Below, piece after piece: positions 2,905 to 7,859 of a stretch of 40,218 nucleotides of DNA (positions are counted from its first letter, which is position 1; the number at the start of each line of letters is the position of its first letter). Position numbers and translations under genes: made by a program. This DNA is from Candidatus Moraniibacteriota bacterium (GTDB lineage Bacteria > Patescibacteriota > Minisyncoccia > Moranbacterales > GCA-2747515). The DNA lies in NCBI GenBank assembly GCA_023133275.1, contig JAGLWU010000010.1, positions 1 through 40,218 on the forward strand. The letters run 5' to 3'. The notes below the pieces were generated by a model that was given only the letters and a program-made list of their open reading frames with translations, made no database searches and was not told the origin of the DNA.

Positions 2905-3207
2905 ATGAATAAAAAACAACCGCAACCAAACAATCAAATAAAACTTGCAGATAATATCGTGGGAGCAGAATATGCCAACATTGCACAAATAATGCATAAC
3001 AAAGAAGAATTTCGTTTAATGTTTGCTCATATTTTTGAACCGACGGGAAAAGTTGTGAGTAAAATTACAGTTACTTCCAGTCATTTTAAAAGAATAGTTT
3101 TAGCGATGCAGGAAAATTTAAAAAGGTATGAAGATCAGTTTGGTGAAATTGAAAAATCGGAAGGTCCGAGTTCCGAAGGGATTGGGTTTGCGGATAGGAA
3201 AGAATAG
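2905..3207 (+). CDS. DUF3467 family protein
   Basis: 100 aa; EFRLMFAHIFEPTGKVVSKITVTSSHFKRIVLAMQENLKRYE resembles the DUF3467 pattern. Confidence 0.75.
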   Translation: MNKKQPQPNNQIKLADNIVGAEYANIAQIMHNKEEFRLMFAHIFEPTGKVVSKITVTSSHFKRIVLAMQENLKRYEDQFGEIEKSEGPSSEGIGFADRKE

Positions 3208-3215
3208 TTTTTTTG

Positions 3216-3224
3216 TGTTATAAT
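3216..3224 (+). promoter_or_regulatory. Extended -10 promoter (TGTTATAAT) upstream of the lipoprotein gene
   Basis: TGnTATAAT 28 nt upstream of the ATG, preceded by a T-tract; the same TTTTTTGTGTTATAAT string recurs at 32151-32166. Confidence 0.6.
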
Positions 3225-3251
3225 CGATATACTTATTTTTAATAAAACATT

Positions 3252-7781: not shown

Positions 7782-7859
7782 ATGAATGATAAACAAGCCA
7801 AAGGTTCAAAAACTGCAAAAGACGGATTTAAAAATGAGTATATTCTATGTTATAATTAA
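7782..7859 (+). pseudogene. Truncated remnant of a HinP1I-family type II restriction endonuclease N-terminus
   Basis: 25-codon ORF MNDKQAKGSKTAKDGFKNEYILCYN*, directly downstream of M1. GSKTAKDGFKNE matches the N-terminus of R.HinP1I as I recall it; no database search was run. Confidence 0.65.
7848..7856 (+). promoter_or_regulatory. Extended -10 (TGTTATAAT) upstream of the second methyltransferase
   Basis: TGnTATAAT 31 nt before the ATG at 7888; it overlaps the end of the HinP1I-like remnant. Confidence 0.5.

Follow-up and report, generated by a model that had tools for sequence, protein, structure and literature searches.

R.HinP1I is a GCGC enzyme (PMC8706393). The same motif is the target of M.Hpy99III, an m5C methyltransferase of Helicobacter pylori that is predicted in all strains analyzed (459/459); the gene of the corresponding Hpy99III endonuclease was found in 61 of the 459 strains and judged functional in 15, as the remaining copies were interrupted by premature stop codons or by frameshifts (PMC8706393). 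GCGC ranks among the commonest target motifs in H. pylori and is not under-represented there (PMC10423294). Here we describe a locus in a 40,218-nucleotide stretch of DNA (the window), where a C5 cytosine methyltransferase gene (M1) is followed by the beginning of a HinP1I-like endonuclease gene (R1) and then by a second methyltransferase and endonuclease (M2 and R2, Table 1). We find it very probable that a complete M1-R1 system of the HinP1I kind decayed at this locus and left M1 solitary, and that M2-R2 is separate; the scarcity of GCGC across the host genome would plausibly record restriction in this lineage.

Table 1. Positions of the genes, the remnant and the promoter-like motif in the window
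Feature	Position	Strand	Basis and remarks
M1, C5 cytosine methyltransferase, 329 aa	6784..7773	+	PF00145, E 5.9e-76
R1 remnant, recognisable homology	7782..7841	+	First ~19-20 codons of an R.HinP1I-family endonuclease gene; 12 identities in a row to R.HinP1I, profile score 24.6 bits (shuffles 13.0 or less), DNA alignment
End of the remnant ORF, after the junction	7842..7859	+	Ends in TAA; similarity not above shuffles
Extended -10-like motif TGTTATAAT	7848..7856	+	Possible M2 promoter, consensus match only
M2, C5 cytosine methyltransferase, 312 aa	7888..8826	+	PF00145, E 2.7e-97; adjoins R2 homologues in five other genomes
R2, endonuclease, 374 aa	8829..9953	+	PF20731, E 7.7e-15; PADLOC REase_II, E 2.2e-96

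The open reading frame (ORF) at 7782-7859 translates to MNDKQAKGSKTAKDGFKNEYILCYN followed by a stop, in total 25 codons. When these 25 residues were used as a phmmer query, GSKTAKDGFKNE was identical to the N-terminus of R.HinP1I over 12 residues in a row, and the family N-terminal sequence GSxTAKxGFxNE, as in R.HinP1I, was present. R.HinP1I (1ynm) was also the sole match among all PDB chains, with an E-value of only 0.08 because the query is just 25 residues long. An HMM of the R1 N-terminus, based on residues 1-50 of ten intact homologues, was run on the six-frame translation of the window and scored the remnant at 24.6 bits and the next segment at 4.3 bits. Among 60 Markov shuffles of the entire window the top score was 13.0 bits (mean 7.3), and the best score elsewhere in ~510 kb of the host genome was 13.3 bits. 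Furthermore, the ORF starts 8 nt past the M1 stop codon, which is where the R.HinP1I gene starts in every full-length relative of M1. Both the score, far over that of the shuffles, and the position at the endonuclease start in all partnered relatives are difficult to reconcile with a match by chance or with a short peptide that has a function of its own, such as a leader or coupling ORF. Such a reading draws on the start codon, the clean stop and the high E-value of the PDB search, but it is already largely refuted and we give it hardly any credence.

In the DNA alignment the homology could be traced to the N-E-(Y) codons at 7833-7841, and past 7841 the DNA is AT-rich with a likeness to R1 homologues at the level of shuffles. 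An ILCYN/IKCFN similarity to the enzyme of genome G046 was set aside, as the extension past 7841 was no better than in shuffles. Intact R1 genes have ~250 codons and here ~19-20 are recognisable, which implies that more than 90% of the gene has been lost, with the left end of the loss near 7838-7841. A functional R.HinP1I has a full-length R-HINP1I domain with its catalytic core; here the stop codon at 7857-7859 comes after 25 codons and, judged by its reading frame, the remnant makes no enzyme. Nothing above background was found for a C-terminal or 3' piece of R1 beyond R2, and a profile search of the host draft assembly, rated 93% complete, gave no match to PF11463 (R-HINP1I) elsewhere.

These results agree with an earlier sequence-only reading of the window, which had described a 25-codon ORF with the R.HinP1I N-terminal signature and then a stop, and had placed a deletion junction near 7838; the ORF translates as claimed and the junction is right within a few bases. 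The same reading had proposed an extended -10 of M2 inside the remnant. The motif is present, but its role as M2 promoter is a consensus match no commoner than in shuffles, since 2 promoter-like sites were found in the stretch holding TGTTATAAT versus 2.4 expected. A junction of this kind could also arise as an assembly artefact, where the genome holds an intact R1 whose start was wrongly linked, in the contig, with an M2-R2 region that has nothing to do with it. The draft consists of 74 contigs and the junction is AT-rich, as such an artefact would have it, but the profile search detected no other piece of R1 in the 93%-complete assembly, and the left flank is unbroken through pheT and M1 as is the right flank through M2-R2 and further genes. 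We thus regard an artefact as very improbable and keep to the loss of R1 from the genome.

The decisive evidence for a HinP1I fossil is the comparison with relatives of M1, which were searched across 384 genomes of the class as well as a sample of relatives. The closest ones (G046, G583, G663, G720, G738, G811, G812 and G078, the last from the phylum sample) have 61-67% identity to M1. These full-length members of the M1 clade come from eight families of the phylum, and in 8/8 an R.HinP1I homologue lies directly downstream of the methyltransferase gene, one of these endonucleases (G720) being frameshifted near its end. The G046 endonuclease matches the solved R.HinP1I over its length (E 1.3e-78), and in Mycoplasmopsis gallopavonis an M1-like gene (56%) is followed by an R.HinP1I homologue in the same order. 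M1 and the partnered methyltransferases formed one clade (support 100/100) with M1 outside the rest, so that M1 clusters with methyltransferases that adjoin R.HinP1I homologues. The comparison with relatives carrying an intact endonuclease had been proposed in the sequence-only reading, and its outcome bears that reading out; a clustering of M1 with a non-HinP1I specificity, named there as a possible refutation, was not seen. Taken together, this confirms, at the level of sequence, 7782-7859 as the remnant of a HinP1I-like endonuclease gene.

The frameshift in G720 lies ~27 codons before the end of the R.HinP1I homologue (L048, about 3152-3235) and is either a sequencing error or another decaying copy. 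In G036 (contig C7; L008/L053) the M1 relative stops after ~244 codons and the contig has no R.HinP1I match, which is a more advanced decay of the same system. The truncated M1 relative and the frameshifted endonuclease indicate that decay in this family extends beyond the window. Just downstream of several of these m5C restriction-modification (R-M) systems we observed Vsr-type mismatch-repair endonuclease genes (L007:321-728 in G046, L018:1099-1485 in G078 and L022:2625-3035 in G676), of which only the G046 gene was confirmed by Pfam; the locus in the window lacks such a gene. Viral contigs scanned with M1, R1 and R2 yielded nothing notable, and R.HinP1I was without a phage match.

M1 has M.HhaI as its best PDB match, over its length (E 2.6e-51). 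In the alignment its catalytic motifs are intact (FCAGIGGGR, GFPCQ, ENVKG, QMRERIY and GNAMT), with all of the C5-methyltransferase signatures PCQ, ENV, QxRxR and GN, and M1 keeps the block DTRQSDLRLY...PTLR.GRHGILYV, which does not vary between the partnered enzymes. Because the catalytic motifs and this target-recognition block are kept, M1 is probably an active enzyme. It retains 146 of the 172 positions that are invariant among the eight partnered relatives, and the changes are mostly conservative. As M1 is more diverged than any partnered relative, it could nevertheless be under weakened constraint.

The R.HinP1I family is tied to GCGC by two genomes (G339 and G401) where R.HinP1I homologues are partnered with HhaI-like methyltransferases, the one of G339 matching M.HhaI with an E-value of 1e-123, target-recognition region included. 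M1 is thus probably a GCGC-specific m5C methyltransferase, a specificity that we infer from its partner enzyme and these HhaI-like partners because the recognition domain of M1 itself differs from that of M.HhaI. Its cognate endonuclease is absent from the genome, as judged by the absence of PF11463 from the 93%-complete draft, and an unrelated endonuclease with the same target may be present. The sequence-only reading saw in M1 the orphaned methyltransferase of a decayed system, and this holds, since the M1 clade is defined by adjacency to R.HinP1I homologues. M1 would accordingly be the orphaned partner of a lost endonuclease, now solitary.

The C-terminal third of R2 is a B3 DNA-binding domain of the NgoAVII/NgoFVII type (Pfam PF20731), and Foldseek matched R2 (model with mean pLDDT 74.9) to the NgoAVII B3 domain with E-values of 7.5e-6 to 2.1e-5. 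The NgoAVII/NgoFVII family has an N-terminal phospholipase-D-like nuclease domain. No such domain was seen in R2, where Pfam matched nothing in residues 1-226 and the chain as a whole fitted the NgoAVII fold (4rct) poorly (rmsd 19.6). From the order of strands and helices and the residues D62, K73 and E88, which are invariant in the N-terminal half, we suspect that this half is a PD-(D/E)XK-type nuclease; the fold search did not confirm this type. An assignment of R2 to NgoFVII and GCSGC was rejected on account of the different N-terminal domain and because the host does not avoid GCSGC.

Five other genomes of the class carry M2-R2 as a conserved pair but no M1, with R2 homologues that are 70% identical in G676 and 47-50% in the other four, and no relative with both M1 and M2-R2 was found. 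This supports M2-R2 as a separate and independent R-M system, as the sequence-only reading had suggested. That reading had also let the second system be inserted into, or replace, R1. Insertion of a mobile R-M system, instead of an independent deletion or replacement of R1, would suit the start of M2 28 nt past the stop of the remnant ORF and the self-contained nature of M2-R2, present in scattered genomes. However, C-terminal R1 sequence is absent beyond R2, where just 24 nt separate R2 from the next gene, and this speaks against a clean insertion. The same arrangement would result from a replacement, or from an insertion after which the right half was lost. We consider insertion rather unlikely; M2-R2 may instead have replaced R1, or may merely have lain beside the dead gene. 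The empty site could not be defined, because the gene order downstream of pheT is not conserved among pheT neighbours.

The host genome is nearly devoid of GCGC. In 549 kb there are 40 sites compared to 449 expected from trinucleotides (observed/expected, O/E, 0.09), and without one contig bearing a cluster of 9 sites, which is perhaps ribosomal RNA, the numbers are 31 and 439 (O/E 0.07); leave-one-contig-out values were 0.061-0.074. GCGC was the most avoided of the 16 four-base palindromes in the host sample, ahead of GGCC (0.16), CGCG (0.20) and CCGG (0.38), and CCWGG was also avoided (0.35). The O/E of GCGC in 13 other genomes, several with small samples, was 0.73-1.21, with 0.73-0.94 where R1 is intact, 1.21 where it is frameshifted, 0.75 where the M1 relative is truncated and 0.91-1.13 where no system is present. 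Among glycine codons before GCN, GGC drops from 16.7% to 2.7%, GGA and GGG rise and GGT falls. Deamination of m5C, which should have turned most of these GGC codons into GGT, is not favoured as the cause of the loss, because GGT does not take their place and GTGC shows hardly any enrichment. Selection against the site, for example through restriction, agrees better with codon shifts so unlike deamination. M2-R2 was set aside as the cause, since GCGC is not clearly avoided in small samples of the five other M2-R2 genomes.

We attribute the avoidance to R1 with reservation, because the host carries six C5 methyltransferase genes, that is M1, M2 and four more, and three of these four adjoin an endonuclease or endonuclease-like gene, including a pair on contig C74 without an assigned target. 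In addition, the avoidance of GCGC is only mild where R1 is intact, which leaves room for a cause other than R1 behind an avoidance this extreme. Possibly, the shortage is unrelated to R1 and reflects a different restriction system of the cell or pressures of another kind, as the avoidance of GGCC, CGCG, CCGG and CCWGG would also suggest. We lean against this explanation, since it is GCGC that is avoided most, R1 is the sole system seen here with a family-based assignment to GCGC, and the M2-R2 genomes, in their small samples, are without GCGC avoidance.

The avoided sites and the six C5 methyltransferases give this ~1 Mb genome a dense R-M history. On contig C74 of the host (G000, L096:103-2049) a C5 methyltransferase precedes a 252-aa putative endonuclease that matched nothing in Pfam, NCBIfam or PDB, and a similar pair, 62-63% identical and in the opposite orientation, is found on a 10-kb plasmid of Vagococcus lutrae. 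On contig C37 (G000, L092:14831-17960) two C5 methyltransferases flank a gene whose match to EcoRII-C is weak and below cut-off (E 4e-4), and given the avoidance of CCWGG this locus is possibly a CCWGG-type system. In the G663 sample (L148-L150) ACGT is nearly absent, 4 sites versus 75 expected (O/E 0.05), which is another sign of strong site avoidance in the group.

Taken together, we propose that a complete Type II R-M system of the HinP1I kind with two genes, M1 and R1, formerly occupied the locus, in which the methyltransferase gene would have been followed, a few bases on, by an R.HinP1I-family endonuclease gene of ~250 codons. A single deletion or replacement most likely removed R1 beyond the first ~20 codons and left the remnant to run into the present stop codon. 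M1 appears intact and most likely still methylates GCGC, and the extreme GCGC shortage would be the record of long-lasting GCGC restriction in the lineage, plausibly by the lost R1. One may go further and see the near-absence of GCGC as a long-lived imprint of the dead endonuclease, with M1 kept for shielding and not for gene regulation. This seems to us improbable, though if true, M1 would shield the few GCGC sites that are left, or the cell's DNA in exchanges with neighbours that bear HinP1I. The locus is a clear example of a two-gene restriction system turning into a solitary methyltransferase, in a bacterium that is, from its small genome and its gene content, probably of the candidate-phyla type, and the eight relatives give the before picture of M1-R1. 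That a dead GCGC endonuclease occurs in the very genome, of the 14 sampled, where GCGC is avoided most makes it testable how long a sequence scar outlasts its enzyme.

Compared with known systems, R2 resembles the NgoAVII/NgoFVII R protein in its C-terminal B3-like domain and differs in an N-terminal half without a Pfam match, in a poor whole-chain fold and in a GCSGC O/E of 0.91 in the host. M1 is like M.HhaI, a GCGC C5 methyltransferase, in its overall PDB match, although its target-recognition region aligns poorly, unlike that of the HhaI-like partners in G339 and G401. The likeness to the HinP1I R-M system (PF11463; GCGC) lies in the 12-residue identity of the remnant, its position and the endonuclease of the eight M1-clade relatives, whereas here the endonuclease gene is cut to ~20 codons and cannot work. 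With M.Hpy99III of H. pylori the locus shares a methyltransferase, in M1 of probable GCGC specificity, that is kept while the endonuclease decays; GCGC is, however, abundant in H. pylori and nearly absent in this host. The loss of R1 is an ordinary kind of decay and a clear new case of it, with M.Hpy99III as a close published precedent.
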